Shown here one piece after another: positions 7,900 to 56,284 of a stretch of DNA of 64,000 nt. Location: the NCBI RefSeq assembly GCF_016411865.1, contig NZ_JAEKJA010000007.1:434001-498000 (forward strand), read 5' to 3'. Position 1 is the stretch's first letter; every line of letters starts with the position of its first letter. A program made the translations under genes and the position numbers. Under the pieces are notes generated by a model. It did no database searches and was not told the DNA's origin. It saw nothing but the letters and a program-made list of their open reading frames with translations. The stretch is from Acuticoccus mangrovi. Its GTDB lineage: Bacteria > Pseudomonadota > Alphaproteobacteria > Rhizobiales > Amorphaceae.

Positions 7900-8442
7900 T
7901 CAATCCATCGAGGGCGTGGCGGTGTGCCGCTCAGGGTCGATGAGGCGGCTCGTGCCGGTGACGAGGTGGCGGATCGCGACGAGGACGGCGTAGAGCGTCA
8001 TGGCGGCGAAGCAGACCGCGACGCCCCAGTAGACGTACGCTTTGGGCACGTCGATCGAGACCATCATCTGGAAGGTGCGGCCGGCGAGCTGCACGGTGCA
8101 CCAGGTGAGGAAGCCGTAGAAGGCGACCGCGGTGAGGTCGACGATGGTCTGAAGCACCCGGCGCAGACCCCGCGGCATCCAGCGATAGAGGATCTCCACC
8201 GCGATGTGGCTGCTTTTGCGCACCGCCATGACGGCGCCGATGAAGGTCACCGCGATGAGCAGGAAGCGGGCGATCTCCTCGGTCCAGCCGAGCGAGTTGT
8301 TGAGCACGTAGCGGGTGAAGAACTGCAGGAAGACGACGCCCGCGAGCGCCCAGAAGACGACGAGCACGATGCCGTCGTCCCATTGGAGATCGGACAGGTC
8401 GATCTCCTCCTCTTCGGCGGGAAGGGCCGGTTCTGTAGTCAT
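7900..8442 (-). CDS. dctQ: TRAP transporter small permease (DctQ)
   Basis: This 180-residue protein has four predicted membrane segments and an acidic cytoplasmic N-terminus (EEEEIDLSDL). The DctQ hallmarks are a first helix followed by RYVLNNSLGWTEEIARFLLI and the charged loop KSSHIAVEILYRWMP. It pairs with the adjacent large permease to form the membrane unit. It starts 57 bases after dctP; the gap contains a strong hairpin, which would let the binding protein be made in excess over the permease. Confidence 0.93.
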   Translation of the reverse strand: MTTEPALPAEEEEIDLSDLQWDDGIVLVVFWALAGVVFLQFFTRYVLNNSLGWTEEIARFLLIAVTFIGAVMAVRKSSHIAVEILYRWMPRGLRRVLQTIVDLTAVAFYGFLTWCTVQLAGRTFQMMVSIDVPKAYVYWGVAVCFAAMTLYAVLVAIRHLVTGTSRLIDPERHTATPSMD

Positions 8443-8468
8443 CGAGGCCTCGATCGCAGAGGGGGAAG

Positions 8469-8493
8469 CCGGCCCGCCCGGGCGGCGGGCCGG
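8469..8493 (-). terminator. hairpin in the dctP-dctQ gap (partial terminator or mRNA stabiliser)
   Basis: CCGGCCCGC (8469-8477) and GCGGGCCGG (8485-8493) form a 9-bp perfect stem with a 7-base loop between the dctP stop and dctQ start. It lacks a T-run, so read-through or protection of the dctP mRNA end is more likely than full termination. Confidence 0.6.
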
Positions 8494-8499
8494 GTCGTC

Positions 8500-9474: not shown

Positions 9475-9714
9475 CAAGAATACCTCCCAAGTGATACGGA
9501 CTTTTGCCGCTTGCTGCGGAGGCTAGTGCAAAGTTCTGTCGTGCTCAACCCGCTTGGGCTATCGTTTTACATTCGGTATTTCTGCGATTTTTCGAGTCCC
9601 GATACCGTCTCCGTGCTGAGGGCGCAGGACATCGTTCCGCGAAACGCTGAGTTTGCGGAAAAGCAACTTCACAACCGGCCGGCCGCGCCCCGAAGGGACG
9701 GCTGGTTCGTGGCG

Positions 9715-10755: not shown

Positions 10756-10758
10756 GGC

Positions 10759-12036
10759 TCAATCCATCAGGAGGCTGGGCAGCCAGGTGGCGGTGGCCGG
10801 CACGTAGGAGACGAGCAGGAGCACGGCGATGTTGGCGATGAGGAAGGGGACGATCGCCTTCACCACCGGCGCGAGCGGCAGCCGCGCGATGTTGGCGCAG
10901 ACGAAGAGGCACACCCCGACCGGCGGCGTGGTGAGGCCGAGCATCAGGTTCAGCACGGCGAAGGTCGCGAAGTGGAGCGGGTCGATGCCCACCGCCGTCG
11001 CGAGCTGGAGGAGCGGCACGAAGAGGATGATCAGCGCCGCGATCGTCTCCATGAAGGTGCCGATGAAGAGGAGCAGGATGTTGATGAGGAGGATCACCAG
11101 GAACTTGTTTTCGGTGATCGACAGGACGCCCGCCGCGATTGTCTGGGGAATGCGCTCGGAGGCGAGGATCCAGCCGAACACGTTGGCGAAGCCGACGAGG
11201 GCGAGGATCGCCGCGGAGGAGACGGCGCTGTCGACGATGATCGACGGGATCTTCTTCAGCGGCAGCTCGCGGTAGACGAAGAGGCCGACGATGGTGGCGT
11301 AGATGCAGGCGACGACCGCCGTCTCGGTCGGGGTCGCGAGGCCGGAGAGCAGGCCGCCGATGATGAGGGCGGTCATGGCGATCGCCCAGAAGGCGGAGGC
11401 GAAGGCGCGGCCGAGCTCGCCGAGCCCCTGCCACGGCTCGCGCGGGAAGTTGCGCCGCCGGGCGATGAGGTAGCAGGCGATCATCATCGCGATGCCCATC
11501 AGGACGCCGGGGATGGCACCGGCGAGGAACATGCGCCCCACCGAGATGCCGGAGAGGGCGCCGACGATGATCATCGGCACCGAGGGCGGGATCATCGGCC
11601 CGACGGTGGAGGAGGCGGCGGTGACGGCCGCGGAGAAGGCGCCGGGATAGCCGGCCTTCTTCATGCCGGGGATCATCATGCCGCCGATCGAGGCGGCGTC
11701 GGCGACGGCGGTGCCGGAGATGCCGCCGAACAGCATGGAGCCGGCGATGTTGGTGAGGCCGAGGCCGCCGCGCATCCAGCCGACGAGGGCGGTGGCGAAG
11801 CGGATGATCCGCTCGGTGATGCCGCCGCTGTTCATCAGGTTGCCGGCGAGGATGAAGCCGGGGATGCACAGGAGGACGAAGACGTCGATGCCCGCGTACA
11901 TCTTCTGCGGGATGACGGCGAGCGGCAGGCCGGTGAAGAGGATGTAGCCGAACGAGGCGAGCCCCAGCGACACCGCCACCGGCACCCCGGCGGCAAGGGC
12001 GACGACGAAGCCGCCGATGAGGACCACGACGTCCAT
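10759..12036 (-). CDS. dctM: TRAP transporter large permease (DctM)
   Basis: This 425-residue permease has many membrane segments. Landmarks are the N-terminal MDVVVLIGGFVVALAAGVPV, IPGFILAGNLMNSGGIT, SMLFGGISGTAVADAASIGG, ASSTVGPMIPPSVPMIIVG and GLTTPPVGVCLFV. ATG 12036 overlaps the dctQ stop by one base (TGATG); the open frame continuing upstream is dctQ read out of frame. It works with the dctQ and dctP genes just upstream. Because the operon also holds idnD and a GntR regulator facing uxuA, the cargo is probably a hexuronate or related acid. Confidence 0.95.
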   Translation of the reverse strand: MDVVVLIGGFVVALAAGVPVAVSLGLASFGYILFTGLPLAVIPQKMYAGIDVFVLLCIPGFILAGNLMNSGGITERIIRFATALVGWMRGGLGLTNIAGSMLFGGISGTAVADAASIGGMMIPGMKKAGYPGAFSAAVTAASSTVGPMIPPSVPMIIVGALSGISVGRMFLAGAIPGVLMGIAMMIACYLIARRRNFPREPWQGLGELGRAFASAFWAIAMTALIIGGLLSGLATPTETAVVACIYATIVGLFVYRELPLKKIPSIIVDSAVSSAAILALVGFANVFGWILASERIPQTIAAGVLSITENKFLVILLINILLLFIGTFMETIAALIILFVPLLQLATAVGIDPLHFATFAVLNLMLGLTTPPVGVCLFVCANIARLPLAPVVKAIVPFLIANIAVLLLVSYVPATATWLPSLLMD

Positions 12037-12593
12037 CAGTGCCGCTCCTCGTGGGCGAGGGCCTCGGGGCTGTCGCCCATCGGCAGGCCGTCGTCGTGGC
12101 CGCGCAGCATGCCCCAGATCCTGAGCGCGGCGAAGACTCCGAGGAGGGCGAGGAGGACGAGCATCGAGGCGTGGATGTAGGTCATGCGCCAGCCGAGGGC
12201 GGGCGAGGTCTGGAACGCGCCGATGGAGGTGAAGCGCCAGGCGGCCGACATGAGGGCGAGCGACAGGACGAGGACGGCGGCCGCCGAGAGGAGGCGCAGG
12301 AGCCAGGCGAAGGGGCGCGGCATCGCCTCGGCCACGAGGTCCACGTTGACGAGGTCGCCCGTGCGCAATGCGAGCCCGGTGCCGAAGGCGGCGAGATAGA
12401 GGAGGGCGAAGCGGGTCAGCTCCTCCGTCCACACCGGCGAGGAGCCGATGGTGCGCCCGACCACCTGCACGGTGACCGACAGGAGGAGGACGCCGAAGGC
12501 GCCGCCGGTGCCGACACGGCAGATCAGGGTGAACCAGCGGGCGACGCGCTGGTCGAAAGGCATGGCGTCCGGCCGTGGGGATCGGTCACTCAT
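12036..12593 (-). CDS. dctQ: TRAP transporter small permease (DctQ)
   Basis: This 185-residue protein has four predicted membrane helices and the DctQ signature SSPVWTEELTRFALLYLA, followed by LRTGDLVNVDLV. The cytoplasmic ends are hydrophilic. It is stop/start coupled with the large permease. An 85-base gap with a 10-bp hairpin separates it from the binding-protein gene, the same arrangement as in the other two leftward TRAP operons here. Confidence 0.93.
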   Translation of the reverse strand: MSDRSPRPDAMPFDQRVARWFTLICRVGTGGAFGVLLLSVTVQVVGRTIGSSPVWTEELTRFALLYLAAFGTGLALRTGDLVNVDLVAEAMPRPFAWLLRLLSAAAVLVLSLALMSAAWRFTSIGAFQTSPALGWRMTYIHASMLVLLALLGVFAALRIWGMLRGHDDGLPMGDSPEALAHEERH

Positions 12594-30877: not shown

Positions 30878-31990
30878 ATGATCAGCGATGGCAGCTCGAA
30901 GATGCATGACATTTTGGTTGTCGCTGAAGATGTGACACGAGTAGCACGGTCCGATGCCGGCCGATCCGGGCGGACGGCGCGTGCCTGGGCTTGGCTGATA
31001 CTGGCGCTCGTCATGGCCGCCGGACCTGCCGCCGCCCAGACCGATCCCCATCAGAGCACGACGCCCGACTACGCCGATCTGCCGATGATCGTCGCGGAGG
31101 AGTTGTCGCTCTTCGCCAAGAATGCCGTCGAGGGGCGGCTGCGCTCCATCGGGTCGGTTGCGCAGGACCTCATGGCCCTGCGCAACAGCGAGATCGACTT
31201 CACCACCCTCGGGCTGGCCGCCTTCGCCGAGGATCTCGCACGCGATCCCGCCCCCGGCGAGCCCAACGATCCGGTCATTCTGGCGAGCCTCGGTCAGTCG
31301 ACGGACTACGAGCACGTCGTCGCCTATGGCGGCGACGCGGTGACCGACCCTTCCTGGCTGCGGGGGCATCGCGTCGGGGTCCCGAACGCGCCGGATCCGC
31401 GTCTTCTCTGGGCCACCTTCTCCTCCTACTACGGGCTCGCCCCGCAGGATGTGGAGGTGGTGGACATCGACGCCGAGGAGGCCGGCGACAGGCTCGCCGG
31501 CGGCGACGTTCAGGCGGTGGTGACCTGGCAGCCCTTCACCGCACGCCTGAAGCGGCGCTTCGGCGAGAAGGCGCACATCTTCTCGGTCAACCACCTCTAC
31601 ACCTCGCGCTGGGTGCTGGTGACGCGGCGCGAGCTCGTTGAGGCGAGCGCGGAGACGTGCTCGCGCGTCCTCGCGGCGCTCGGCGAGGCGATTGAGCAGA
31701 TCGAGGCGGATCCGGCGCTGGCCGGCGCCATCTTCGCCGACTATGCGGGCCTCGATACGGCGGATACGGCGGCGCTCGAGGGGGCGATCAGCTTCGACCT
31801 CAGCGTCGACTGGTCGCTGATTGCGGAGCTTCAGCACCGTCTCGCATGGCTGGCGCACGAACACGGCAAGCCGGTGGAGGCGAACGGCCGGCTGCTCGAC
31901 ATCATTCGCATCGATCCCTTGGCGACGGTCACGCCTTCGGCAGCGCGGCTGCCGGGCGCCCTGGGCGCAAGACATCGCGGCGCTCCGTGA
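30878..31990 (+). CDS. periplasmic NMT1/ABC-type binding protein coupled to a histidine kinase
   Basis: This protein of up to 370 residues has an internal signal-like hydrophobic segment (AWAWLILALVMAAGPAAAQ, ending near residue 54). A substrate-binding domain of the NMT1/taurine/nitrate type follows, with MIVAEELSLFAKNAVEG, a SEIDFTTLGLAAF-like segment, LRGHRVGVPNAPDPR and VQAVVTWQPF. The N-terminus before the signal is long, so the true start may be further in (ATG 30902 or GTG 30932). No ABC permease or ATPase is near. Its stop overlaps the start of the hybrid kinase as GTGA. It therefore probably acts as the ligand-sensing partner of that kinase rather than as a transporter subunit. Confidence 0.75.
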   Translation: MISDGSSKMHDILVVAEDVTRVARSDAGRSGRTARAWAWLILALVMAAGPAAAQTDPHQSTTPDYADLPMIVAEELSLFAKNAVEGRLRSIGSVAQDLMALRNSEIDFTTLGLAAFAEDLARDPAPGEPNDPVILASLGQSTDYEHVVAYGGDAVTDPSWLRGHRVGVPNAPDPRLLWATFSSYYGLAPQDVEVVDIDAEEAGDRLAGGDVQAVVTWQPFTARLKRRFGEKAHIFSVNHLYTSRWVLVTRRELVEASAETCSRVLAALGEAIEQIEADPALAGAIFADYAGLDTADTAALEGAISFDLSVDWSLIAELQHRLAWLAHEHGKPVEANGRLLDIIRIDPLATVTPSAARLPGALGARHRGAP

Positions 31991-34665
31991 AGCTCTATCG
32001 CCTCGCGATCGTCGTCATCATCGTTGCCTTCACGGGCATCGCTGCGCTCGCGGGCCTCGGCTGGGTCACCTATGTCGAGGCACGCAAGAGTCAGGTGGTG
32101 CTCACCGAGCTCGTCGATCTGAAGAGCGACATCGACGCCTTCTCCGTCGCCGCCGACAGCCTGCTCCTCTACGAGACCGACGGTGCGCTTCTCGGTGCCG
32201 TGATCGCCGATGGGGAAGGGATCGTCCGCCGTCTCGACGCGGTCGCCGCCGTCGCCCCCGAGGCGCACAAGGCGGCGCAGCGGGTCGAGCCGATGCTGCT
32301 GCTGCTGACCGAGTTCGGCCGGGGGCTGCCGGAGGCCTCCGACGCGGGCGGTGCCAACGATCCCGCGGGGCCGCTCGCGATTCCGATGCGTGCGCGATCG
32401 CTGATCAGCCAGATGGCCAATCTCGGCATCGCGCTCGACATCGCCATGGACCGTGCGCACAGCTACCAGCGCCAGGTGATCGACAAGGCGCTGGCGCGTC
32501 TCATCGCCATCTTGGCGATTGCCGGCGGCGGCCTCGGCCTTCTGGTGGTTGCGGGCTTCGCCATGAGCTTCCGCGTGATCGCGGTGCCGCTGCGGCAGAT
32601 GACGCGGGTGATCGCCCGCATCGAGAGCGGCGAGCCCGAGGCGCGCATGCGCGGCGGCGGCTTCAGCGAGCTCCACGACCTCGCCAACGCGTTCAACCGG
32701 CTGGTGGAGCGCGAGCACACCGCCAAGGCGCAGCTGGTCGCCTCCCAGCAGGACCTTGCCGACCGCGCTCGTCTCCTCGCCGAATCGCAGCGCATCGCGC
32801 ACATCTGCAGCTGGCAGCGCGATCTCAGAACCCAGGAGGTGAAGTGGACCGAGGAGGCGCGCGAGATCCTCGGCATCGACACTACCTACGTCGACGGCGA
32901 AGGCACGGTGTTCATCGACCTCGTCCACCCGGACGACCGGGCGGCCTTCATGGCGGCGCGCGAGGCGTCCTATTGCGGAGACGGGCCGACGGCGATCAAG
33001 CACCGCATTATCCGGCCCGACGGCGAGCTGCGCTTCTGCGTCACGCGGTCGGTGGCGAAGGTGGAGGAGAACGGCCGGGCGGTGGTGATGGCCGGCACGC
33101 TGCAGGACGTGACCGATCAGGAGATCGCCGAGCGGGCCGACGCCGAGCAGCGCCGCATCCTGGAGATGGCCGGCCGCATCGCCCGGTTCGGCGGCTGGAC
33201 GGTGGATGTCGGCACGTGGCGGGTGACGTGGTCGCGCGAGATGTGCGCCCTCCACGGCCTGCCGGAGGGGGCGACGCCGACGCTGCAGCAGGTGCTCGCC
33301 TTCATCGTGGCCGAGGACCGGGAAAAGATGACGCGGGCCATGATGGCCTGCATCAACCAGGGCACGCCCTACGACGAGGAATGCCGCGTCGAGAACGCCC
33401 AGGGCAACGTCCTGTGGGTGCGCACCGTCGGTGAGGCGGTGCGGGACGAGAACGGCAACATCGTCAAGCTCGCCGGCGCGTTACAGGACCTGACGACCCA
33501 GAAGAACGTGGAGGAGATGCTCCGCCACACCCAGCGCCTCGAGGCGGTGGGTAAGCTGACGGGCGGCGTCGCGCACGACTTCAACAACATGCTGACGGTG
33601 ATCATCGGCGCGGCGCAGATCATGGTGGATCGGGTGTCGAACGATCCGATGCTGAGCAAACTCGCCGACATGACGCTGACGGCGGCCAACCGTGGGGCGA
33701 AGCTGACGAGCCGGCTCCTCGCGGTGGCGCAGCGCCAGACGCTGGCGCCGAAGCCGACCGACCTCGTCGGCCTGCTCCTCGGCATGGAGAACCTGCTCCG
33801 GCGGGCGATCGGCGAGGACATCGAGCTCGAGATCAACTCGCCGGCGAACCTGTCGCGGGCGATGATCGATCCGAACGAGCTCGAGAACGCCATCCTCAAC
33901 CTGTGCATCAATGCGCGCGACGCGATGCCGGACGGCGGGGTGCTGCGGATCGACGTGGAGGAGTGCTGGCTCGGCGAGAGCATGACGCGCAAGAACGGCA
34001 GCGTCTTGCCCGGCACCTACGTGATGGTGTCGATCTCCGACACCGGCCACGGCATGGACCAGGCGACGGTGAGCCGCTGCTTCGAGCCCTTCTTCACGAC
34101 CAAGGAGGAGGGGCGCGGCTCCGGCCTCGGCCTGTCCATGGTGTTCGGCTTCGTGAAGCAGTCGAACGGCCACATCGAGCTCGATTCGGAGGTCGGGGTC
34201 GGGACCACCATCAAGCTCTACCTGCCGGTGGTGACCGGCGACGTCGAGCTCGAGGAGGAGCCGGAGGATCTCGGCACCGCCGAATCGGGCAACGAGTTCG
34301 TGCTGGTGGTGGAGGACGACGACCTCGTAGCCGCCTCGCTGGAGAGCAAGCTGGAGCGGCTGAACTATCGCGTGGAGGTGGCCCGCAACGGCCCCGAGGC
34401 GATGCGCATCCTGCGCCAGCATCCCGACATCGACCTCCTGTTGACCGACATCGTCATGCCGGGCGGCATGAACGGGCGTCGTCTCGCCAAGGAGGCGGGC
34501 CAGCTGCGACCGGGGCTCAGCGTCGTTCTGATGTCCGGTTATTCGGACCAGCTCACCGCCACCGAAGGGGCGGAAGGGCCGAAGATCCTGCTGCGCAAAC
34601 CGTTCACACGCGAACAGCTCGCGGCGGCCCTCCGCCGGGCTCTCGAGACGGCCGACACCGTCTGA
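31987..34665 (+). CDS. membrane hybrid histidine kinase (HAMP, two PAS, kinase, receiver)
   Basis: This 892-residue kinase starts at GTG 31987, overlapping the binding-protein stop. Order: a membrane helix at about residues 4-26, a periplasmic loop of about 140 residues, a second helix near 168-195, HAMP, two PAS domains (about 265-370 and 385-505), a HisKA dimerisation helix with KLTGGVAHDFNNMLTVI (His530), an ATPase with ENAILNLCINARDAM and SDTGHGMD, and a C-terminal receiver with the phosphoacceptor in LLLTDIVMPGG (Asp821). The periplasmic loop is the likely docking site for the binding protein. No separate response regulator lies nearby, so the phosphate must pass to a distant partner or the receiver acts as a sink. 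Confidence 0.92.
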   Translation: MKLYRLAIVVIIVAFTGIAALAGLGWVTYVEARKSQVVLTELVDLKSDIDAFSVAADSLLLYETDGALLGAVIADGEGIVRRLDAVAAVAPEAHKAAQRVEPMLLLLTEFGRGLPEASDAGGANDPAGPLAIPMRARSLISQMANLGIALDIAMDRAHSYQRQVIDKALARLIAILAIAGGGLGLLVVAGFAMSFRVIAVPLRQMTRVIARIESGEPEARMRGGGFSELHDLANAFNRLVEREHTAKAQLVASQQDLADRARLLAESQRIAHICSWQRDLRTQEVKWTEEAREILGIDTTYVDGEGTVFIDLVHPDDRAAFMAAREASYCGDGPTAIKHRIIRPDGELRFCVTRSVAKVEENGRAVVMAGTLQDVTDQEIAERADAEQRRILEMAGRIARFGGWTVDVGTWRVTWSREMCALHGLPEGATPTLQQVLAFIVAEDREKMTRAMMACINQGTPYDEECRVENAQGNVLWVRTVGEAVRDENGNIVKLAGALQDLTTQKNVEEMLRHTQRLEAVGKLTGGVAHDFNNMLTVIIGAAQIMVDRVSNDPMLSKLADMTLTAANRGAKLTSRLLAVAQRQTLAPKPTDLVGLLLGMENLLRRAIGEDIELEINSPANLSRAMIDPNELENAILNLCINARDAMPDGGVLRIDVEECWLGESMTRKNGSVLPGTYVMVSISDTGHGMDQATVSRCFEPFFTTKEEGRGSGLGLSMVFGFVKQSNGHIELDSEVGVGTTIKLYLPVVTGDVELEEEPEDLGTAESGNEFVLVVEDDDLVAASLESKLERLNYRVEVARNGPEAMRILRQHPDIDLLLTDIVMPGGMNGRRLAKEAGQLRPGLSVVLMSGYSDQLTATEGAEGPKILLRKPFTREQLAAALRRALETADTV

Positions 34666-35148
34666 CGACGGGTGCCGCAGGGCCGAGATATCGGCGCTGC
34701 GAGACGGCCGTCCCACCCCTCCAATACTCGACCGATCATGAGGCGGCGCCGCATTCTCGCCACGGTCTGCGCTGGAATGGGACGATTCGGAGACTTGCGC
34801 TTAGGAATTGCTTATAGGATCTCGCTATAGGGTGAATTGTTAAGAAATTGTTGTCTTTGTGTAATTGGAGCGCTATTCTTCCAAGGAAAGTAACGTGACG
34901 CTTTTTGGTCATATATTGCATAAAGCCGGCGGGGTTGATTGATCGCTTTCGGGCTCCGAGGGGTTGCGTTGCAGAAAAGTGCTGAATATCAGGGGTCCAC
35001 GTCATATTGACGCCTTGGCCCAATTGCCTGCATATGAGGGTTGAGACATAGCGGCGTGAGGGCCGTGCTCTGTCGCACAGCGGTGACAGCGTTCACAGCG
35101 TCTTTAATGACTAAGAATGTTTGCTTAAAAAATAGCCCTCACGGAAAG
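34666..35148. promoter_or_regulatory. AT-rich gap upstream of the KaiB-kinase operon
   Basis: This 483-base gap has an unusually AT-rich stretch from about 34795 to 35140. The motif GGAGACTTGCGC lies at 34789-34800. A leftward reading frame (34736-35023) gives an unconvincing peptide. I see no gene; promoter and regulatory DNA is the best description. Confidence 0.4.
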
Positions 35149-35457
35149 ATGGAGCGTCGCTTGGAAATCGTTCTCTATGTCTTTGGCGATGCCCCCAATT
35201 CGTCACGTGCGAGACGAAATCTCGCCGCATTTTGCCATGCCAATCCAGCCATGACACAGCGCTTCGAAGTGGTCGATCTGATCACCGAGCCCGAGCGCGG
35301 CGTGACGGATCGGGTGGTGGTGACGCCTCATGTCGTGGTCAAGTCCGCTTCAATGGTCCGTCATATTATCGGAGACCTCTCCGATACGACCGCGCTTGCC
35401 GAGGCATGCGCCGGCGTGGTGGCAACTCAGTCGGTAGATGACGCAAAGGCAGGGTAA
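35149..35457 (+). CDS. KaiB-like thioredoxin-fold protein
   Basis: This 102-residue protein matches the KaiB family along its length: LEIVLYVFGDAPNSSRARRN, an EVVDLITEPE strand, VVVTPHVVVK and RHIIGDLSDTTALAEA. KaiB proteins change fold and bind KaiC in the cyanobacterial clock; the same domain is the N-terminal sensor of kinase SasA, and many bacteria have KaiB-like proteins of unknown role. No KaiC is in the window. The last 20 bases overlap the start of the six-PAS kinase, so the two are probably made together. The ribosome site before ATG 35149 is weak (GGAAAG). A direct physical partnership with the kinase is inferred. Confidence 0.82.
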   Translation: MERRLEIVLYVFGDAPNSSRARRNLAAFCHANPAMTQRFEVVDLITEPERGVTDRVVVTPHVVVKSASMVRHIIGDLSDTTALAEACAGVVATQSVDDAKAG

Positions 35458-38400
35458 TCCTTCCGAGCAGGACGAACGGGCGGCCAAAGGCGATGGCGAG
35501 ACGCTCAACGAGCTGATCGCGCAGCTCGAGGCGTTGACGACGCGGATCGAAGCGATGGGCGGCGGCGGCGTCGACGCCATCGTCGGTCAGAGCGGTTCGA
35601 TCTATCTCGGCCACGCCGCCCGATCGCACTTCGTGCAGCAGGCGAACCTGTTGCGGCCGATCTTTCGCAGCGCCGCCACCGGCATGGTGCTGCTCGATCC
35701 GCAAAAGGCGATCGTGTCCGCCAATCCCGCCTTCTGCGAGATGCTGCGCGCCCCCGAGGACAAGGTGGCCGGCCTCGCCTTTCTCGACCTCATCATGGAG
35801 GCGCCGGGCAGCGAGGCCGATCCCTTTGCCGAGCTCAACGCGACGCGAACGACGAGCCGCATCTTCGAAGCGCTGCTGCGCGGTCTCAACGGCCGCTTCA
35901 TCGCGACCCGCATCAGCGCCTCCGCCGACCGCGACGGCGACGGCGAGGTGCTCGGCTACGTCGCCATCGTGGAGAACATCACGCCGCAGAAGCTCGCCGA
36001 GGCGGAGCGTTCGCGCATCGCCCAGTTGGAGCGCGCCGCCCGCCAGGAGGCGGCGATCAAGGGCATCCAGTTCAACACCCTCTTCGAGGCTCTACCCGGG
36101 CTCTATTTCGTGTGCACCAGCGACCTCGTGGTGGTCGGCGCGAGCGACGCCTTCGTCGAGGCGATCGGCGTGGAGCGGGGCGACTTCGTGGGGCGCGAGC
36201 TGTTCGACGCGCTGCCGCCGGAGCCGTTCGGCTACTCGCCCGCGACGGCGGCCCTCTTGCGCACCTCGCTCGAAAAGGTCCGCGCCACCGGCCGGCCGGA
36301 CCCGATGCCGCTGCAGCAGCGGGTGATTCCGGGGGCGGCCGGCGAGGACGGCGACACGCGCTACTGGGAGCCGCTCAACTCGCCCGTCTTCGGCATCGGC
36401 GGCAAGGTCGAGTTCATCATCCACCGGGCCGACGACATCACCGACACGCGCCGTCGCGAGGAGGCGCTGGAGCGCTCGGTGCGGGCCGTCAGCCAGAGCG
36501 AGGAACGCTTTCGCCAGCTCGCCAACGCGCTGCCCCAGAAGGTGTGGGTCGCCGATGCGGGCGGTGGGCTGCAGTTCGCAAGCCACCGCCTCGTCAACTT
36601 CATCGGCGAACCCAACGTCCTCGAGCACGAGCAGCTCTTCGACGGCGTGGTCCATCCGGAAGAGGCCGAGGGCTTCGCTCTTTTGTGGTCCGAATCGCTC
36701 GCCACCGGCATCCCCTTCGCCACCGACTTCCGCATGCGGCGGGGGTCGGACGGCATGTATCGCTGGCAGCACGCGACGGCGGTGCCGATCCGCAACGAGG
36801 CGGGCGGGGTGGTCGAGTGGTACGGCACGCTCAACGACGTGCACGACCTCAAGATCGCCGAGGCCAATGCGCGCCGCCTCGCCCAGCAGCTCGACGGCAC
36901 GCTGCGCAGCATCACCGACGGGGTGATCACCTGGGACCGGGCGTGGCGCTACACCTTCGTCAATGCCGAGGCCGAGCGCCTCGTGCGCCGCAATCAGGAC
37001 GAGCTTCTCGGCCATTGCCTGTGGGACGAGTTCCCCGAGCTGATCGGCACCGAGCTCGACTACAACTTCCGCCGCGCGGTCGACGAGATGGCCTCGCGCC
37101 GCTTCACCTACGCCTCGCCGGTGATGCGCAAATGGGTCACGGTGTCGATCTTCCCGTTCGCCGACGGGGTGACGGTGATCTTCCGCGACGTGGAGCGCGA
37201 GAGGGTGCGCGAGCAGCGCCTGCGCCTCCTCGAGGCGGCGGTGTCCCAGCTCAACGACATCGTCCTCATCACCGAGGCCTATCCGCTCGACCCGCCCGGC
37301 CCGCGCATCGTTTTCCTCAACGAGGCGTTTCAGGCGAACACGGGATATACGATGGCCGAAGCCATCGGGTCGACGCCGCGCCTTCTCCAGGGGCCGGGCA
37401 CCAACCGCGCCGAAACGCGGCGGATCCGCGAGGCGCTGGTGCGCCGCGAGCCGGTGCGCGCCGAGCTCCTCAACTACAAGAAGGGCGGCGACCCGTTCTG
37501 GCTCGAGCTCGACATTCTGCCCCTCTTCGACACCTCCGGCGACGTGACCCACTTCGTGTCGGTGATGCGCGACGTGACCTCCCGCAAGCGGCAGCAGTCG
37601 CTGATGACGTGGCAGGCGGAAATGCTCGACAAGTCCGCCGACGCGATCATCGTGCGCGACACCGCCAACGTCGTGACCTACTGGAACCGCACGGCCGAGC
37701 GGGTCTACGGCTTCTCGGCGGAGGAGGCGATCGGGCGGCACATTTCCGACCTCATCGACCACAATCCGGTGGCGCTGCGGGCGGCGATGCGCGAGACGAT
37801 CGAAACCGGCCACTGGGTCGGGCGGATGGACAAATACCGCAAGGACGGCTCGGTGCTGACGGTGCAGGCCAACTGGTCGCTGATCCCGGCGAGCGACGAG
37901 CGCGACGCGGCGATCCTGACGATCAACACCGACATCTCCGAGAAGGTGCGCCTGGAGCAGCAGATCGCCCAGAGCGCGCGGCTCGATTCGCTCGGCAAGC
38001 TGACCGGTGGCATCGCTCACGACCTCAACAATCTCCTCACCATCATGGTGGGCAGCACCGACCTGCTCCTCAAGAAGGCGGTCGACCGGCCCGACCTCAT
38101 GACGCTCCTCACCATGTCGCGCTCGGCGGCGGAGCGCGGGTCGGATCTCGTGCAGCGCCTGTTGTCGTTCGCCCGGCGTCAGCCGCTCGACCCGCGCCCC
38201 ACCGACGTCAACACCCTCATCACCAACTTCGAGCCGCTGCTGCGGCGGGCGATCGGCGAGAATATCGAGGTCGAGATCGTGATGCCGGGCGAGGTCTGGC
38301 TCGCCGAGGTCGACCCCGGGCAGCTCGAGAACGCCATCCTCAACCTGTGCATCAACGCCCGCGACGCGATGCAACCCGACGGCGGCCACCTCACCATCGA

Positions 38401-39115
38401 GACCAGCAACGTCGTGCTCGACGAGGACTATGTGAACCGCACAGTGGAGGTGGAGGCGGGCGACTACGTGCTCGTGAGCGTGACCGACACCGGCCACGGC
38501 ATGGACGCGGCGACGCTCGACCGGGTGTTCGAGCCCTTCTTCACCACCAAGTCGGCGGGCTCGAGCAGCGGCCTCGGCCTCTCGATGGTCTACGGCTTCG
38601 TCAAGCAGTCGGGCGGCCATATCGCCGTCTATTCGGAGGAAGGGCAGGGCACCAGCGTCCGCCTGTTCCTGCCGCGCTCGGTGTCGACGTCCGACCCCAT
38701 CGACGAGCCGACCCGGCGCGGCGAGATCGTCGGCGGCGACGAGGTGGTGCTTCTCGTCGAGGACGACGACATGGTGCGCGACCACGCGACCGATCTCCTC
38801 AAGGGGCTCGGCTACACCGTGATCGCTGCGGAGAGCGGACCGAGCGCGATGATCATGCTGCGCGACCACCCGGAGGTGGAGCTGCTCTTCACCGATGTGG
38901 TGATGCCCGGCGGCATGAACGGGAAGCAGCTCGCCGAGGCCGCGCGCGAGATGCGCCCCGACCTGCCGGTGCTCTACACTTCCGGCTACACCGACCACAC
39001 GATCATCGCCCATGGGCGGCTGGAGCCCGGCGTCGTTCTCCTGAGCAAGCCCTACCGCCTCGCCGATCTCGCCAGCAAGCTGCGCCAGGCGCTGGAGGAC
39101 GGCGGCACGCCCTGA
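35438..39115 (+). CDS. soluble hybrid histidine kinase with six PAS domains
   Basis: This 1225-residue protein has no membrane segment. A short coiled coil (about 18-42) is followed by PAS-type domains at roughly 70-185, 210-335, 350-475, 485-590, 600-715 and 720-840. A HisKA helix follows with KLTGGIAHDLNNLLTIM (His861), an ATPase domain with NAILNLCINARDAM and TDTGHGMD, and a receiver with FTDVVMPGG (Asp1153). The fifth PAS is LOV-like (LLNYKKGGDPFW, HFVSVMRDVT) but reads GSTPRLLQ where photoactive LOV domains have GxNCRFLQ. The kinase, ATPase and receiver parts closely resemble those of the preceding hybrid kinase, so the cores are probably paralogous. It overlaps the KaiB-like gene by 20 bases. 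Confidence 0.92.
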   Translation: MTQRQGNPSEQDERAAKGDGETLNELIAQLEALTTRIEAMGGGGVDAIVGQSGSIYLGHAARSHFVQQANLLRPIFRSAATGMVLLDPQKAIVSANPAFCEMLRAPEDKVAGLAFLDLIMEAPGSEADPFAELNATRTTSRIFEALLRGLNGRFIATRISASADRDGDGEVLGYVAIVENITPQKLAEAERSRIAQLERAARQEAAIKGIQFNTLFEALPGLYFVCTSDLVVVGASDAFVEAIGVERGDFVGRELFDALPPEPFGYSPATAALLRTSLEKVRATGRPDPMPLQQRVIPGAAGEDGDTRYWEPLNSPVFGIGGKVEFIIHRADDITDTRRREEALERSVRAVSQSEERFRQLANALPQKVWVADAGGGLQFASHRLVNFIGEPNVLEHEQLFDGVVHPEEAEGFALLWSESLATGIPFATDFRMRRGSDGMYRWQHATAVPIRNEAGGVVEWYGTLNDVHDLKIAEANARRLAQQLDGTLRSITDGVITWDRAWRYTFVNAEAERLVRRNQDELLGHCLWDEFPELIGTELDYNFRRAVDEMASRRFTYASPVMRKWVTVSIFPFADGVTVIFRDVERERVREQRLRLLEAAVSQLNDIVLITEAYPLDPPGPRIVFLNEAFQANTGYTMAEAIGSTPRLLQGPGTNRAETRRIREALVRREPVRAELLNYKKGGDPFWLELDILPLFDTSGDVTHFVSVMRDVTSRKRQQSLMTWQAEMLDKSADAIIVRDTANVVTYWNRTAERVYGFSAEEAIGRHISDLIDHNPVALRAAMRETIETGHWVGRMDKYRKDGSVLTVQANWSLIPASDERDAAILTINTDISEKVRLEQQIAQSARLDSLGKLTGGIAHDLNNLLTIMVGSTDLLLKKAVDRPDLMTLLTMSRSAAERGSDLVQRLLSFARRQPLDPRPTDVNTLITNFEPLLRRAIGENIEVEIVMPGEVWLAEVDPGQLENAILNLCINARDAMQPDGGHLTIETSNVVLDEDYVNRTVEVEAGDYVLVSVTDTGHGMDAATLDRVFEPFFTTKSAGSSSGLGLSMVYGFVKQSGGHIAVYSEEGQGTSVRLFLPRSVSTSDPIDEPTRRGEIVGGDEVVLLVEDDDMVRDHATDLLKGLGYTVIAAESGPSAMIMLRDHPEVELLFTDVVMPGGMNGKQLAEAAREMRPDLPVLYTSGYTDHTIIAHGRLEPGVVLLSKPYRLADLASKLRQALEDGGTP

Positions 39116-49704: not shown

Positions 49705-52700
49705 CTAGTTGAGGCGGCCGGAGGCGTGGGCGAGCAGGGTGTAGAGCTTGCCCTCGTCCGACATCAGCGTGTCGCGGGTCCGGCGGCCGGACGTGTCGCT
49801 GCGCGAGGTGTCGGCGATCGCCTTCTCGAACTCGTCGACATAGCGGTCGACGTAGCCGCGAAAGTCCCGGTCGCGCTGATAGCGGCGGCGCACGTCCTCG
49901 AAGGTCTGCTGGCCGTCCAGCGTGTAGAGCTGGCGGGAGAAGACCTGGCGCTCGCCGCGATTGAAGCGCTGCCACAGCTCGCGGTAGATGCCGTCCTCGA
50001 TGGCCCGCGCGGCGGGCTTGGCGAGGCGGGACAGCTCGTTGTCGGCGGACGGTGCGGACTGCGGCGCGGCGGGAAGGCTCTCCTCCTCGGAGTCGGCGCG
50101 GCGCAGCAGGCCGTTCATCCAGCCGCTCTCGCTCGGCAGGCGATTGCCGGCGCGGCCGTTGGTGGCCGCCCGCTCGGGCGTCTGGCGGCTCTCCGGCACG
50201 CGCCGTTCGGCGCGGCGGTAGGCGTCGCGGCCGGCGCTGCTGCCCTCGGTCGCGGCGGCCATCTCGCCCTGGCCGGAGTGGCGGGCGACGATGGCGCCGA
50301 GCTCGCGCACGGCGGCGAGCTGGTCGGTCACCGCCCGGCGCAGCGCTTCGGCGTTCTGCACCGTCTCCTCCGGCAGCTCCATCACCGAGCGCTCGAGGGC
50401 GGAGCGCGTCGTCTCGAACTCCTCCTGAACGCTGCGGGCCGACTGGCGCATGTCGGAGGTGGCCGACTGGAAGCGGTCCGCCACCGCCTGCAGCGCCTCG
50501 ATGAGCTCGGCGGCCATCGCCTCGTGCGAGATGCGCAGATTCTCGCGGATGCGCTCGGCATCGGCGCTGGCATTCTCGTGCAGGGCTTCGAGCTGCGGGC
50601 CGACGGCGCGGGCGGCCTCGTCGAGCGTGCGCTCCAGCAGGATGCGGGCGTCGTGCACGCGCTCCTCGGTGCTGCGCAGCTGGTCGTCGACGCGCTCGGT
50701 GAAGGAGCGCATCAGCGAGTCCACCTGCTCCGACTTCGTCATCAGGTTGGCCGAGAGGTCCTCGAGCGCGGCGCGGCGCTCGTCCATGCGGCTGTCGAAG
50801 GCCGACGCGTCGCCCTCGAAGCGCTCCACGATACCGGCCAGGAACTCGCCGTCGCGCTCGATGCGCTGGGCGATGGAGGCGAGGTCACCGAGGGCGTTGT
50901 CGGCCGCCTCGCGCAGGGCGTTCGCCTGGCGCGACATCTCCTCGCCGGTGCGGTTGGTGTCGGCCAGAGCCGCCTGCACCACCTGGCGCAAGCCCTCGCC
51001 ACGGGTGGAGAGATTGTTCTCCATGTCGGCGAGGGTGGTGCCGACCGAGCCGAGCATGTCGTGCAGCGCCGCGTTGGTGGCCTGCACCCGCTCCAGCGTG
51101 CCGCCGAGCTCGTCGATGAGGGCGGCGTGGGTCTCGCGCAGCTCCGAGATGGCGCCGGCACCGCGCTCGGCGAGGGCGTTGAGGAACTGGTCGCCGTGCT
51201 CGTCGATGACGACGCGGAGGTCGGACAGCGACGCGGCGGCGTCGCGCGCCACCTGCTGCATGGCGTCGGTGGTGCGGCCGCCCTCCTCGGTGAGGGCGTG
51301 ATGAGCACTGGCCATCGTCTCGGTGATGGCGCTGCGGGTCGCTTCGGTGCGCTCGTCGATCATGCGCAGGAGCTGGTCGAGGGCTTCGACCATCGCGTCG
51401 CGCATCATCTGGCCGCCGGAGGCGACCTCGCCGGACATCGAGGCCATGGTGTCGGCCAGCATCTGGTTGACCGAGGTCGTCTCCTGCGAGAGCTGGTCGG
51501 CGATCCGCTGCATCGGCTCGAGGATGTCGTGCTGCGTCGCCTCCACGAGGGTGCGCAGAGCGTCCTGGGCCCGCTCGCCTTCGCCGGCGAGGCCGTCGGC
51601 GATGCCGTGGGTGGCCTCGCGGCTGAGCTGCGTCACCTCCTCGAGGCGGGCGGCGAAGGCGTCGTTGATGGAGGCCTGGCCGTCGGCGAGGGCATCGGAG
51701 ATGGTGCGGGCGCGCTCCACGAGGGCGTCGGACACCTTCTCGACGCGTCCGTCGAGCGCCTCTTCCATCGCCTCGAGGCGCTCGGTGAGGACGCTCGCCA
51801 CCTCGGTCGCGTGGGTCGTCAGCGCCGACACCACCTGGGTGGAGCGCTCGTTGACGAGCTCGTCGTAGCGCTCGATCGTCTCGGCGAGCTCGCGCGCCAC
51901 CGGCGTGCCCCGCTCGTCGAGCAGGGTGGAGAGGCGGGTGAGGTCGCTGCCGATCTGCTCGCGCAGCATGTCCATGCGGCCCGCGAAGGCGCTGGTCTCG
52001 GCGTCGAAGGAGGCCGACATGGTGTCGATGCGATCGCTCAGCGTGCGCTCGTAGCTCTCGGCGGTGGTTGCGACGATCGCCTCGAGGCGGGCCGAGTTGT
52101 CGGCCACCACGGCCTCGTAGCGCGTCACCTCGTTTTCGAGCGACACGCGGATGGCGTTGCCGCGATCGGCGATGATGTCGGCGATCTGCATGGCCGACTG
52201 GCTGATCTCGCGAGCCGCGGTGGAGCCCCGGTCCGACACCGCCTCGGCGATCTCCACCCCGGCGTGGGCGAGCGTCTCGGCAATGTCGGTGGTGTGCTTC
52301 TTCATCGCCGACGACACGTCGTGGGTGGCGTCGGAAAGGCTCTCGCGCACCCGGTCGGTGTTGGCCTTCATGTTCTCCTGGAAGGCGTCGGTGGAATGAC
52401 GCAGCGTGGCGTCGAGCGTCGCGCCCTCGGAGGTGATGGCGTGCTCGATGCGGTCGGCCGTGCCTTCGATGCGGGAGGCGAGCTCGCCGCCGGAGACGGT
52501 GATCGTCTGGCTCATGCTGCCGTGGATCGTCTCGAGGCGATCGGTGAAGGCCTCGGCGCGCACCGCGAGATCCTCGACCAGCGAGGAGCCGGAGCCGGCG
52601 ATGACGTCGGCCACGCGGTCGACCTCGCCGCTGATGCGCTCGACCACGTTGTCGGTGCGCACCGACAGCGTGTTGCCGGCCTGCTCGGTACCGTCCACGA

Positions 52701-55700
52701 AGGTCCGCTCCAGCGCCTCGGAGAAGTGGTTGAGGCTCGTCTCGAAGGTCGCCGCGTAGCTGATGAAGCTCTGCTCGAGCTGGGTCTGGCGCTCCTTGAG
52801 GAGCTCGTCGGAGCGGTCGGCCTGGCGCAGCAGCGTCTCCGACAGCGACGTCGAGGTCTGCGTGACGGAATCGGTGAGCCGGTCGCCCAGCGCGTTGATC
52901 GAGGATTCGATCTGGTCGATCTGCGCGAACACCGCGTCGTGCATCTGGGTGGAGGCGCCCGAGATCGACTCGGTCATGCGGTCGCCGAGGTGGGTGAGGC
53001 GTTCCTCCACCTCGTGGATGTGGCCGCCGAACGATTCCAGCATCGCCGTGGTGGTCGACTGCACGGTGCCCGACAGGTGGTCGGAGAGGGCGTGCACGCG
53101 GTGCTCCATATCGTCCACCTGGCGGCCGATCGTTTCGGAGAACTCGGAGGTGGCGGAGCTGACGACGTTGCCCACCCGGTCGCCCAGCACGTTCAGCGTC
53201 TCTTCGAGCTGGTCGGCGCGGGTGATGAGGGTGTCGCTCATCTGCGAGGAGGAGGCGGTGACGGCGTCGGTCAGGCGGTCGCCCAGCACGCCGAGGGTGG
53301 AGCTGACCTGGTCCACCTGGTTGAGGAGCTGGTTGGAGAGCTCCTCGGTGGCGGCCTGGATGGCGTTGGAGGTGAGCGAGCCGCTCTGGCCGATGGTGGC
53401 GTCGAGCTCGCCCATCTTGTTCTCGATGGCGGCGACGAGGCGCGAGGCGGTCTCGGTGAGGCGCTCGTCGACCATGGTGGAGCGCAGCGACACCGTTTCG
53501 GCCGCGCGCTCGGCCGACTCCGACACCTCGCGCTCCATCAGGCTCATGCGCTCGGCCATGGTGGAGGAGACGTGACGCGACACGGCGTCGACGCGCTCGT
53601 CGATCTCGCCGAGGCGGCCTTCGATCATCCCGCCGATACGCTGGGCCGCGTCGGAGAGGGTGGTGTCGAGATGGCTCAGCGAGCCGGAGACGACGCCGGT
53701 CAGCCGCTCGCCGGCTTCCGACATCTGCGTCGTCACCACGGTGAGGCGGTCGCTCACCTGGTTCTCCAGCGTCTGCGACGCGGTGACCACGGTGGACTCG
53801 ATGGTGGCGAGGCGCTCGTCGACGGTCGCCACCACCTCCTCGGACACGCGCGACAGCGTGTTGTCGATGCTGGCGAGCTGGGTGTCGAAGGTCGCGGTGA
53901 GCTGCTCGTTGGCGCGCGTCATCTCGGTGGTGACGGCGCCGGCCCGCTCGGTGAGGTTGTTGGTGAGGTACTCGGCGGTGCGCGTCAGGGCGCCGTCGAC
54001 GTCGCCGAGGCGGCCCTCGACGATCTCGATCAGAGTGCGCGAGGAGCGCTCCAGCGTCCCGTCGAGGCTCTGGACGGAGGTGTCGACGAGGCTCGTGAAG
54101 TGCTCGGCGGTGCCGGACACGGCGTTCTCCAGCGTCTCCAGGCGCTCGTCGAGCATGTTCGTCAGCCGCTCGGAGGCGTAGGTGACCGAGGTGTCGACCG
54201 CGTTCATGCGATCCTCGACCGTGTTCGACAGCCGCTCGGACGACAGCGACACGCTCGCGTCGAGCGCGCCCATGCGATCGGCGATGGTGGTGTTGAAGCG
54301 GTCGCTGGCGTCGGCGAGGGTGGCCTGCACCTCGCCGAGCTTGGAATCGACGGTGATGTTGAGGGTGGCGTTCACCTCGTTGATGGCGCCCGACACCTTC
54401 TCGCCGGCCGACATCAGCACCCTGGTGACCTCCTCGGCGCGTTCCAGCACCGTGTCGGCCATGGTGGAGCCCGTCGAGGCGAAGCTCTCCGTCATCGCCA
54501 CCGTGCGGTCGGCGAGGGTGTCGACCAGCTCCTGGCCGACGCGGCCGAACTCGTCGGTGATCTCCTTCGACTGGCCGGCGATGGAATCGATCAGGATGTC
54601 GGCGGTGGAGCGGATCGTCTCCGTCGCCGAGCCCGCCTCGGCCTGAAGGCTGCCGACGAGATATTCGGCCGTTGAGCGGATCGTCTCCACGGTCTGGCCG
54701 GTCTCCGAATGGAGGCTGCCGACGAGCGCTCCGGAGGCGCCCTTGACCGCGGCGATGGTCGCCTCGGACTGGTCGTTGAGCGCGTTGATGAGGGCCTCGA
54801 CGAAGGAGTGGACCGCGTCGGACTGGGACTGCGAGGCGGTCTCGAGCTTGGCCACCACGGCGTCGCCGGTGTCGGTGAGCCGCATCTCCAGTTCGTGCGA
54901 GCGGTCGACGAGCTTGCCCACATAGGCATCGCCGCTCTGCGAGAAGGTGGTGAGGAGCGACTGGCCGGAGGTGCGCAGATCGTCGGCGATGCGCTGGGTC
55001 TCGGCCTCGAAGGTGGAGCCGATGGAGCCGGTCGCCTCCGACAGGCGGTTCGACACGGTATCCTGCAGGTCGCCCACCAGCGCGGCGAGGCCGGTCTTGG
55101 CGGTCTCCAGCTCCTCGCGGATCTGGTCGGAGTTCGCCATCAGCATCTGGCGCTCGGCGACGAGCTCCTCGAAGAGGGCGCGGATCTTCGCCTCGTGGTC
55201 GCCGTAGGAGCGCTCCAGCGCCGACACCTCGCGGTGGACGAGGACCTCGAGCTCGCTCGCCCGCTCGAGCGCCTGCTCGATGCCCGCGCTCATGCCGGCG
55301 ACCTCGCGGCGGATCGCCTGGCCGATGTTGGCGACCCCTTCGGTGGCGTTGATCTCGGGCTCAGTGAGGCGCTGGGCGAGTTCGCTCATCGCCTGGGAGG
55401 TGGAGCGCAGCTCCTCCGACCGCTGCACCAGGAAGGCGACCATATAGAAGAGGAGGATCGGGGCGACCGTGGCGCCGAGGAGGGCGAAGCCTTCGGCCGA
55501 TTGCACGAACCCCATCACCCCGCTCTGGGCGACGAGGCCGATGCCGATGAGGGCGGCGAGCCCGATCCAGACGAGGGAGATGACGGTGGCGATGGACACC
55601 GCCGTGATGCCCCGCCGGCGGCCGGCCTTCTCCGCCGCCTCGAAGCGGGCGCGATCGTCGTTGGCGGCGGCCTGCTGCTTGGCAAGGGCGCGGTGGCGGC

Positions 55701-55968
55701 GGCGCCGGGGCCGGCTCGCGGCGTCACCGTCGTCCACGTCGTTGGCGGCGGCGAAGGCCGCGGCGTCCGCCTCGACGTCGTCCACCGCCGACTCCTCGGC
55801 GGTTGGCACGCTCGCGCTGAGCGAGTCCTCGATCCCGGAGACGAGATCGACCTGTTCGTCCTCGTTGCTGCCGAGGTCGAACTTCAGCGCCTCCTCGACG
55901 GCCGACAAGGCGGCGTCGGAAGGATCCGAGCCGGTCGCCTCGGAAGAGCGGTGCGGGTCTGTCGCCAT
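49705..55968 (-). CDS. giant membrane-anchored coiled-coil protein, growth pole ring (GPR)-like
   Basis: This is a 2087-residue protein. Residues 1-115 are acidic then Arg-rich; two membrane helices follow at about 121-148 and 160-181, leaving a cytoplasmic C-terminal part of about 1900 residues. That part is almost all amphipathic helix. Residues 533-862 are fifteen contiguous 22-residue repeats, and 891-1055 are five 33-residue repeats, as in apolipoproteins. The last ~230 residues are a proline-rich linker and a compact conserved end (RELWQRFNRGERQVFSRQLY). Size, membrane topology and apolipoprotein-like repeats match the growth pole ring protein of Agrobacterium, which organises polar growth in Rhizobiales. 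ATG 55968 has GAGG 8 bases upstream. Function is inferred from that similarity of form. Confidence 0.85.
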   Translation of the reverse strand: MATDPHRSSEATGSDPSDAALSAVEEALKFDLGSNEDEQVDLVSGIEDSLSASVPTAEESAVDDVEADAAAFAAANDVDDGDAASRPRRRRHRALAKQQAAANDDRARFEAAEKAGRRRGITAVSIATVISLVWIGLAALIGIGLVAQSGVMGFVQSAEGFALLGATVAPILLFYMVAFLVQRSEELRSTSQAMSELAQRLTEPEINATEGVANIGQAIRREVAGMSAGIEQALERASELEVLVHREVSALERSYGDHEAKIRALFEELVAERQMLMANSDQIREELETAKTGLAALVGDLQDTVSNRLSEATGSIGSTFEAETQRIADDLRTSGQSLLTTFSQSGDAYVGKLVDRSHELEMRLTDTGDAVVAKLETASQSQSDAVHSFVEALINALNDQSEATIAAVKGASGALVGSLHSETGQTVETIRSTAEYLVGSLQAEAGSATETIRSTADILIDSIAGQSKEITDEFGRVGQELVDTLADRTVAMTESFASTGSTMADTVLERAEEVTRVLMSAGEKVSGAINEVNATLNITVDSKLGEVQATLADASDRFNTTIADRMGALDASVSLSSERLSNTVEDRMNAVDTSVTYASERLTNMLDERLETLENAVSGTAEHFTSLVDTSVQSLDGTLERSSRTLIEIVEGRLGDVDGALTRTAEYLTNNLTERAGAVTTEMTRANEQLTATFDTQLASIDNTLSRVSEEVVATVDERLATIESTVVTASQTLENQVSDRLTVVTTQMSEAGERLTGVVSGSLSHLDTTLSDAAQRIGGMIEGRLGEIDERVDAVSRHVSSTMAERMSLMEREVSESAERAAETVSLRSTMVDERLTETASRLVAAIENKMGELDATIGQSGSLTSNAIQAATEELSNQLLNQVDQVSSTLGVLGDRLTDAVTASSSQMSDTLITRADQLEETLNVLGDRVGNVVSSATSEFSETIGRQVDDMEHRVHALSDHLSGTVQSTTTAMLESFGGHIHEVEERLTHLGDRMTESISGASTQMHDAVFAQIDQIESSINALGDRLTDSVTQTSTSLSETLLRQADRSDELLKERQTQLEQSFISYAATFETSLNHFSEALERTFVDGTEQAGNTLSVRTDNVVERISGEVDRVADVIAGSGSSLVEDLAVRAEAFTDRLETIHGSMSQTITVSGGELASRIEGTADRIEHAITSEGATLDATLRHSTDAFQENMKANTDRVRESLSDATHDVSSAMKKHTTDIAETLAHAGVEIAEAVSDRGSTAAREISQSAMQIADIIADRGNAIRVSLENEVTRYEAVVADNSARLEAIVATTAESYERTLSDRIDTMSASFDAETSAFAGRMDMLREQIGSDLTRLSTLLDERGTPVARELAETIERYDELVNERSTQVVSALTTHATEVASVLTERLEAMEEALDGRVEKVSDALVERARTISDALADGQASINDAFAARLEEVTQLSREATHGIADGLAGEGERAQDALRTLVEATQHDILEPMQRIADQLSQETTSVNQMLADTMASMSGEVASGGQMMRDAMVEALDQLLRMIDERTEATRSAITETMASAHHALTEEGGRTTDAMQQVARDAAASLSDLRVVIDEHGDQFLNALAERGAGAISELRETHAALIDELGGTLERVQATNAALHDMLGSVGTTLADMENNLSTRGEGLRQVVQAALADTNRTGEEMSRQANALREAADNALGDLASIAQRIERDGEFLAGIVERFEGDASAFDSRMDERRAALEDLSANLMTKSEQVDSLMRSFTERVDDQLRSTEERVHDARILLERTLDEAARAVGPQLEALHENASADAERIRENLRISHEAMAAELIEALQAVADRFQSATSDMRQSARSVQEEFETTRSALERSVMELPEETVQNAEALRRAVTDQLAAVRELGAIVARHSGQGEMAAATEGSSAGRDAYRRAERRVPESRQTPERAATNGRAGNRLPSESGWMNGLLRRADSEEESLPAAPQSAPSADNELSRLAKPAARAIEDGIYRELWQRFNRGERQVFSRQLYTLDGQQTFEDVRRRYQRDRDFRGYVDRYVDEFEKAIADTSRSDTSGRRTRDTLMSDEGKLYTLLAHASGRLN
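52804..53298 (-). repeat. five 33-residue repeats in the GPR-like protein
   Basis: Residues about 891-1055. Units begin TLGVLGDRLTDAV, TLNVLGDRVGNVV, RVHALSDHLSGTV, RLTHLGDRMTESI and SINALGDRLTDSV, each exactly 33 residues (99 bases) with no gaps. Three turns of 11 residues per unit is the apolipoprotein periodicity. Confidence 0.85.
53383..54372 (-). repeat. fifteen contiguous 22-residue repeats in the GPR-like protein
   Basis: Residues 533-862. The pattern is roughly S-E-R-L-x-x-x-V-x-x-R-L-x-x-V-D-x-x-V-x-x-A, for example SERLSNTVEDRMNAV and SERLTNMLDERLETL. I counted fifteen units of exactly 22 residues (66 bases each) without insertions. Confidence 0.88.
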
Positions 55969-56284
55969 GAACATCGCCTCGATCGTACGCGTACTGAAGG
56001 TGCCGGACACTGCGCCCGGCGCGCCAACGTGACCAGCGGCCGCGGGCGGGATTCGCCGGGCGGTCGCGGCCATTCGTTAAGAATTGGCTAATGCCATACT
56101 ACACGGGGTCGAACAAGGAACGCACGTCCTGAAGATCGTTAAGGTTAATTCTGTTAACCTTTGGCCGTCGCTCGGTTTTTGCGGTGAGGGGGGTTGCCTC
56201 CCGCAGCACGGCTGGACGGCGGCCGCGTTGCTTGACGCGCTCTGGTTAATCGCTATGTCGCTCGCAGCGTCCTAGCGAGGTTCC
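55969..56284. promoter_or_regulatory. divergent promoter of the GPR-like gene and the ferredoxin gene, with a CtrA-like site
   Basis: This 316-base gap has no supported gene. TTAA-N7-CTAA at 56077-56091 differs by one base from the alphaproteobacterial CtrA consensus TTAA-N7-TTAA. A perfect inverted repeat GGTTAA-N5-TTAACC lies at 56143-56159. The region around both is AT-rich. Confidence 0.5.

Follow-up and report, generated by a model that had tools for sequence, protein, structure and literature searches.

Can a KaiB-type protein serve a histidine kinase at a locus that carries no kaiC? This question is raised by a stretch of 64,000 nucleotides from Acuticoccus mangrovi (contig NZ_JAEKJA010000007.1, positions 434,001 to 498,000; hereafter, the window), where a preliminary description made from the sequence alone had noticed a gene for a KaiB-like protein, P0001, overlapping the gene for a hybrid histidine kinase, P0002, and had suggested a KaiC-free signaling switch. 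The occurrence of this pair without kaiC at the locus was confirmed. We tentatively propose, with a confidence somewhat short of even, that the pair is a KaiC-less signaling module derived from the widespread kaiB/kaiC/PAS-kinase kind, in which the KaiB-like protein would act directly on the kinase. The pair consists of the following elements.

35149..35457, plus strand: P0001, a divergent KaiB-like protein of 102 residues, G+C content at third codon positions (GC3) 0.62 (PF07689 and PDB sequence matches)
35438..35457, plus strand: overlap of exactly 20 bases between the stop of the kaiB-like gene and the start of the kinase gene (read from the sequence)
35438..39115, plus strand: P0002, a hybrid histidine kinase of 1225 residues (Pfam, catalytic motifs, start codon)

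Pfam and the reading of the sequence agreed that a KaiB family protein of 102 residues overlaps by 20 bases a six-PAS hybrid kinase of 1225 residues, as had been described. P0001 scored above the Pfam cut-off for KaiB (PF07689, 35.1 bits against 27, E 1.1e-8), and of its ten PDB sequence matches, eight carry the name KaiB, one is called a "circadian oscillation regulator," and one is a hypothetical protein. The NCBIfam KaiB equivalogs were far from reached (38.3 bits against 145.3 for TIGR02654, and 37.5 against 110); therefore, P0001 is a divergent KaiB. Its frame is intact and retains conserved positions including D43, P60, and GDLSD. The Pfam domains of P0002 are six PAS stretches (PF00989), HisKA (852-915), HATPase_c (959-1080), and a receiver (1104-1215). 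No membrane domain and no KaiB domain were found among these matches, so the KaiB-like domain is indeed a protein separate from the kinase and not an N-terminal fusion of the SasA type. P0002 also carries what we take to be the phospho-acceptor, ATP-binding, and receiver motifs. The receiver (PF00072) retains the aspartate motif TDVVMPGG and is thus not a pseudo-receiver of the CikA type. Both genes are co-oriented and adjacent, which is the arrangement of kaiB and kinase in kaiBC-PAS/histidine kinase (HK) cassettes. By eye, no clear ribosome-binding site was apparent upstream of the P0002 start, and beyond codon 1 the first start-type codon is 33, followed by 40; the overlap suggests translational coupling. 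One PAS domain of P0002, at about residues 597-724 (window 37226-37609), is LOV-like, with a match to the YtvA family. The LOV motif GxNCRFLQ reads GSTPRLLQ there and thus lacks the photoactive cysteine.

The frequency of KaiB without kaiC was determined in a sample of 397 genomes of the order, 36 of which were matched by P0001 and 40 by a profile of ten KaiBs. Genome G390 was dropped, its sequence being a thioredoxin by the motif WCGPC. This left 44 kaiB loci in 39 genomes, one of them (G319) viewed with 1.5-kb flanks only. A same-strand kaiC gene no more than 300 bases away was present at 39 of the 44 loci and absent at five: the window, which thereby departs from the kaiC adjacency of the KaiB family, and genomes G248, G264, G260, and G147. 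All three intact kaiC-less kaiB genes adjoin and overlap a downstream kinase gene, and the possibility that KaiB-like genes always accompany kaiC, named in the preliminary description as a ground for abandoning its proposal, was not borne out. Because the kinase search used the P0002 core as query and is blind to other kinase types, all kinase counts are lower bounds. An adjacent kaiC was found in 11 of 11 further KaiB genomes of a class sample (385 genomes) and in 10 of 10 of a sample of the family of G248 (247 genomes). A phylum sample of 398 genomes contained 37 with KaiB at E ≤ 1e-5, 28 of them previously unseen; in each of the 28, the stretch retrieved around at least one kaiB also contained a KaiC, this count resting on part of the kaiB rows and including cases in which a second kaiB intervenes.

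The strongest support for a KaiC-free pairing of KaiB and kinase came from G248 and G264, two species of one genus in a family other than that of the window.

L181 (G248) 5637-7039 and L182 (G264) 5983-7394: intact kaiB-kinase pair with an ATGA junction

In both species kaiB is followed by the gene for a kinase of 365-368 residues, the stop and start codons being fused as ATGA. The G248 kinase, in which HATPase_c is the sole Pfam match at 1e-3, shares 48-49% identity with the kinases of the G217 and G338 cassettes, and in a kinase tree of 57 sampled rows it groups with the kinases of G217, G338, and G899 (100/99). Searches of G248 and G264 with the KaiC family model and with the full KaiC of G899 each gave one weak partial match per genome, and the latter query recovered a full-length KaiC in G899. 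The partial match in G264 is RadA (TIGR00416, above cut-off) and adjoins DnaB; that in G248 is a frame of similar size (485 residues). G899, which belongs to the same family as G248, has kaiB-kaiC-kinase at the corresponding site (L206; KaiB 54% and kinase 52% identity), and the DNA 5′ of kaiB is 71% identical between the two over 692 bp. Therefore, kaiC was probably lost in place in the G248/G264 lineage while kaiB and the kinase were kept. Nonsynonymous and synonymous divergence (dN/dS) between G248 and G264 was 0.28/0.78 for KaiB and 0.15/0.73 for the kinase, and by these rates both genes are under purifying selection. Accordingly, the suggestion of a KaiC-free switch gained from the existence of such pairs and lost from the window pair itself, which is not conserved.

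Several observations weigh against direct action of P0001 on P0002. Two upstream features are needed to set them out.

31846..34665, plus strand: P0003, a second hybrid kinase with HAMP, PAS, HisKA, HATPase_c, and receiver (Pfam, kinase tree)
34666..35148, plus strand: AT-rich spacer of 483 bases 5′ of kaiB, GC 0.53 (base composition)

The test of conservation set by the preliminary description turned out negative for the exact pair, as no KaiB was found around the closest congeneric relatives of P0002 and no close relative of P0001. An ortholog of the pair was not found in nine other genomes of the family or in the order sample, so selection on P0001 is not measurable. Likewise, a pattern scan of genome-contig and viral-contig collections returned no close relatives of P0001. 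The P0001 branch is very long (4.5), and its GC3 is low. P0002 and P0003, paralogs with kinase cores 54% identical, fell in a genus-level clade (100/98) with kinases of G001, G002, G003, G005, and G007, none of which is kai-linked; no KaiB was found around six kinases of this clade (in G003, within the 495 bases seen upstream). In the 57-row tree P0002 stood outside the cassette lineages, and its nearest relative, a G001 kinase with 43-44% identity across some 860 residues, had no KaiB upstream. For this reason, P0002 does not appear to descend from a sampled kai-cassette kinase, and the window pair would not have been made by simple kaiC loss from such a cassette. As judged from the tree, a KaiB was moved to, or has remained at, the side of a kinase from a different lineage at this locus. 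At least five other genomes of the genus of G248 have no KaiB match, the pair thus not being universal there, and the G248 kinase has no receiver match, so that no docking surface common to it and P0002 is evident. Finally, loss of kaiC in G260 was accompanied by loss of about half of kaiB.

In a tree with all rows P0001 grouped with a divergent KaiB clade (98/93). Firm membership was discarded, as support fell to 67/66 in a tree built without three long rows and with three additional ones. Apart from a degenerate copy in G147, this divergent KaiB group adjoins a matching divergent KaiC group (100/100), and its scanned neighbors included two hybrid kinases and two PAS-GGDEF-EAL proteins. Divergent kaiC-kaiB pairs in the family of the window itself (L016 in G009 and L017 in G008) stand beside PAS-GGDEF-EAL proteins, not kinases. 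Two Hymenobacter plasmid sequences matched P0001 with 37-41% identity. On a plasmid of Hymenobacter tibetensis (L102, 5174-9709) a KaiB family gene is flanked by a response regulator and by a convergent PAS protein that weakly matches kinases; no KaiC match was found within the 12-kb stretch of that plasmid.

The main rival to direct action, which we regard as appreciably possible, is that P0001 is a drifting remnant, or a recent arrival beside the kinase by chance, that once served a lost KaiC and is now functionless. The long branch, the low GC3 next to an AT-rich spacer, and the lack of an ortholog of P0001 together with P0002 relatives free of nearby KaiB speak for this reading, and comparable decay was seen in G147, which has the lone degenerate kaiB copy, and in G260.

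L184 5951-7740: G260, kaiC gone and kaiB half deleted, directly 5′ of an intact PAS kinase

The G260 kinase is 79-84% identical to the kinases of six kaiC-kaiB-kinase loci of the same genus, and its C-terminal part matches kinase models of a type other than that of P0002. Drift is less easily reconciled with an intact frame that scores above the Pfam cut-off and keeps D43, P60, and GDLSD, or with the overlap with a kinase gene on the same strand. The base composition can be read either way: the median GC3 across 44 window open reading frames chosen by codon composition is 0.91, well above that of P0001, but three other KaiB genes of the genus are also lowish (0.67-0.68), though others have 0.76-0.85; the value for L024, read out of frame, was left out.

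It is improbable that P0001 works in trans with a KaiC encoded elsewhere and relays its state to P0002, in an ordinary KaiBC-kinase pathway with scattered genes. The window genome (65 contigs, 97.4% complete) has one KaiB match, P0001, and is matched four times by PF06745. Two of the four matches lie on contig C20 and form one two-domain KaiC of 494 residues, and the remaining two are partial, about 75 positions each, on contigs C2 and C17.

L026 8401-9975: C20 KaiC of the window genome (G000:C20; PF06745)

The absence of KaiC reported earlier consequently held for the window, where nothing matched at E ≤ 1e-3, and not for the genome. The presence of this protein favors action in trans, as does the location of cyanobacterial sasA apart from the kai genes (PMC3164672). 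In the KaiC tree, however, the C20 protein and the KaiCs of G005 (L209) and G147 (L208), which have no adjacent KaiB, formed their own clade (100/100), apart from 47 KaiB-linked KaiCs. Positions were located on the Synechococcus elongatus KaiC sequence. The two CI catalytic glutamate positions read SQ in the C20 KaiC and SQ and SE in the other two members of its clade, compared with EE in 45 and EQ in two of the 47 KaiB-linked proteins. In the lone type, the stretch at the B-loop position is 10 residues long and lacks a DL end. Of the 47 KaiB-linked KaiCs, 34 have a stretch of 8 residues there, 11 one of 9, and two one of 10, and in 38 it finishes with DL. The B-loop is the docking site of KaiB on KaiC, and a role of the CI ATPase has been described (PMC6378743). 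Furthermore, the congener G005 has a 53% relative of the C20 KaiC and no KaiB match. Given its separate clade, the missing glutamates, the different loop, and the KaiB-free G005, the C20 KaiC is unlikely to be the partner of P0001. The two phosphorylation sites in this clade read SF (C20), SY (G005), and SY (G147).

A further reading, in which the kaiB-like frame serves chiefly to control how the kinase is translated, as an upstream gene with a coupled start and a dispensable product, would fit the 20-base overlap and the lack of a clear ribosome-binding site, but it is very improbable, since coupling needs no recognizable KaiB family protein and the KaiB sequence is under purifying selection in G248 and G264.

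Direct action of the KaiB-like protein on the kinase is suggested by the position of P0001, by the second KaiC-free case under selection, and by a published case in which a KaiB variant binds the pseudo-receiver of CikA with no KaiC present (PMC6378743). P0001 would be co-translated with P0002 and would dock on it as a small adaptor, at a PAS, dimerization, or receiver surface, and docking would shift the kinase/phosphatase balance. The scheme presumes co-expression of the two genes, physical contact between their products, an influence on kinase activity, and the site of docking. KaiB may work on kinases directly in some cases. A wider idea is that histidine kinases have come under direct control of KaiB, independently of KaiC, on at least two occasions; KaiB would then be a general kinase adaptor, and not solely a partner of KaiC, whose metamorphic or locked thioredoxin-like form gates the kinase. 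We consider this rather doubtful.

Structural prediction lent no support to fold-switching of P0001. AlphaFold2 run on the single P0001 sequence gave models with predicted local distance difference test scores (pLDDT) between 40.9 (worst) and 67.3 (best). Foldseek, run with this poor single-sequence model, had no match at E ≤ 0.001, and none of the 50 PDB matches that it listed was a KaiB. The strand and helix order of the model resembles the ground-state order of KaiB, and was given no weight. Residues G89 and D91 are those changed to lock the switched fold in cyanobacterial KaiB; both corresponding positions of P0001, extrapolated without gaps beyond the end of the alignment, are alanine. 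A locked switched fold was not concluded from this pair, which is not diagnostic, as many KaiC-linked KaiBs of the order, inspected by eye, also lack G89 and D91. P0001 also has alanine at residue 26, the position of N29 in cyanobacterial KaiB, whose N29A variant binds CikA without KaiC (PMC6378743). As a hint of KaiC-free binding Ala26 is only a lead, because other KaiBs of the divergent group vary at this position.

A KaiB gene beside a PAS kinase gene is not new in itself. Alphaproteobacterial kaiC-kaiB-PAS/HK operons, as in Rhodopseudomonas palustris and Rhodobacter sphaeroides, are known in which kaiB is likewise co-oriented beside a PAS kinase gene (PMC4794148, PMC3164672), and Methylobacterium extorquens AM1 has kaiC1-kaiB2-kaiB1-kaiR1 (PMC8069551). 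The window differs from the former operons in having no kaiC at the locus, a more divergent KaiB, and a kinase outside the sampled kai-cassette lineages. It resembles cyanobacterial SasA in that a KaiB-type domain is tied to a histidine kinase. It departs from SasA in that the KaiB stands as a protein of its own, in the PAS domains and receiver of the kinase, and in that a KaiC suited to the role was not found. With the CikA-KaiB system, where direct contact of KaiB with a receiver-like domain is documented (PMC6378743), it shares a receiver on the kinase; unlike CikA, P0002 has the aspartate motif and no pseudo-receiver, and its contact with P0001 is only presumed. Finally, the G248/G264 pair is like that of the window in the overlap of kaiB with a downstream kinase gene and the lack of an adjacent kaiC, but it probably arose from kaiB-kaiC-kinase by kaiC loss, has only RadA-type KaiC matches in its genomes, and includes a short kinase without a receiver. 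KaiB has been stated, for a KaiC-filtered set, to occur only with full-length KaiC (PMC5520375). G248 and G264, with an intact, selected kaiB-kinase pair and only RadA-type KaiC matches, look like exceptions to this rule. The excerpts of PMC8874327 contained nothing on a KaiC-less KaiB, and no report of a KaiC-less KaiB, a KaiB-hybrid kinase pair, or KaiC loss was found among titles and the opening parts of abstracts. The G248/G264 pair makes the effect of KaiB on a kinase testable without the clock ATPase, and the answer would bear on how SasA, CikA, and other output kinases of the clock originated.

The 483-base spacer 5′ of P0001 is the presumed promoter region; a scan of it for promoter and terminator consensus sequences gave no match, and tblastn with the KaiC set found no convincing kaiC remnant in it (best E 0.094 among the matches listed). 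The start of P0003 is uncertain, and the protein was analyzed from 31981. A gene for an NMT1-like binding protein lies directly 5′ of P0003, perhaps overlapping it (window 30878-34665), and the two could form a ligand sensor pair. Elsewhere in the window, a frame of 1874 residues (6556-12180, plus strand) has a low GC3 of 0.65 and no Pfam match at 1e-5, and a frame of 2122 residues (49705-56073, minus strand) contains seven apolipoprotein-like stretches and is perhaps a coiled-coil protein.

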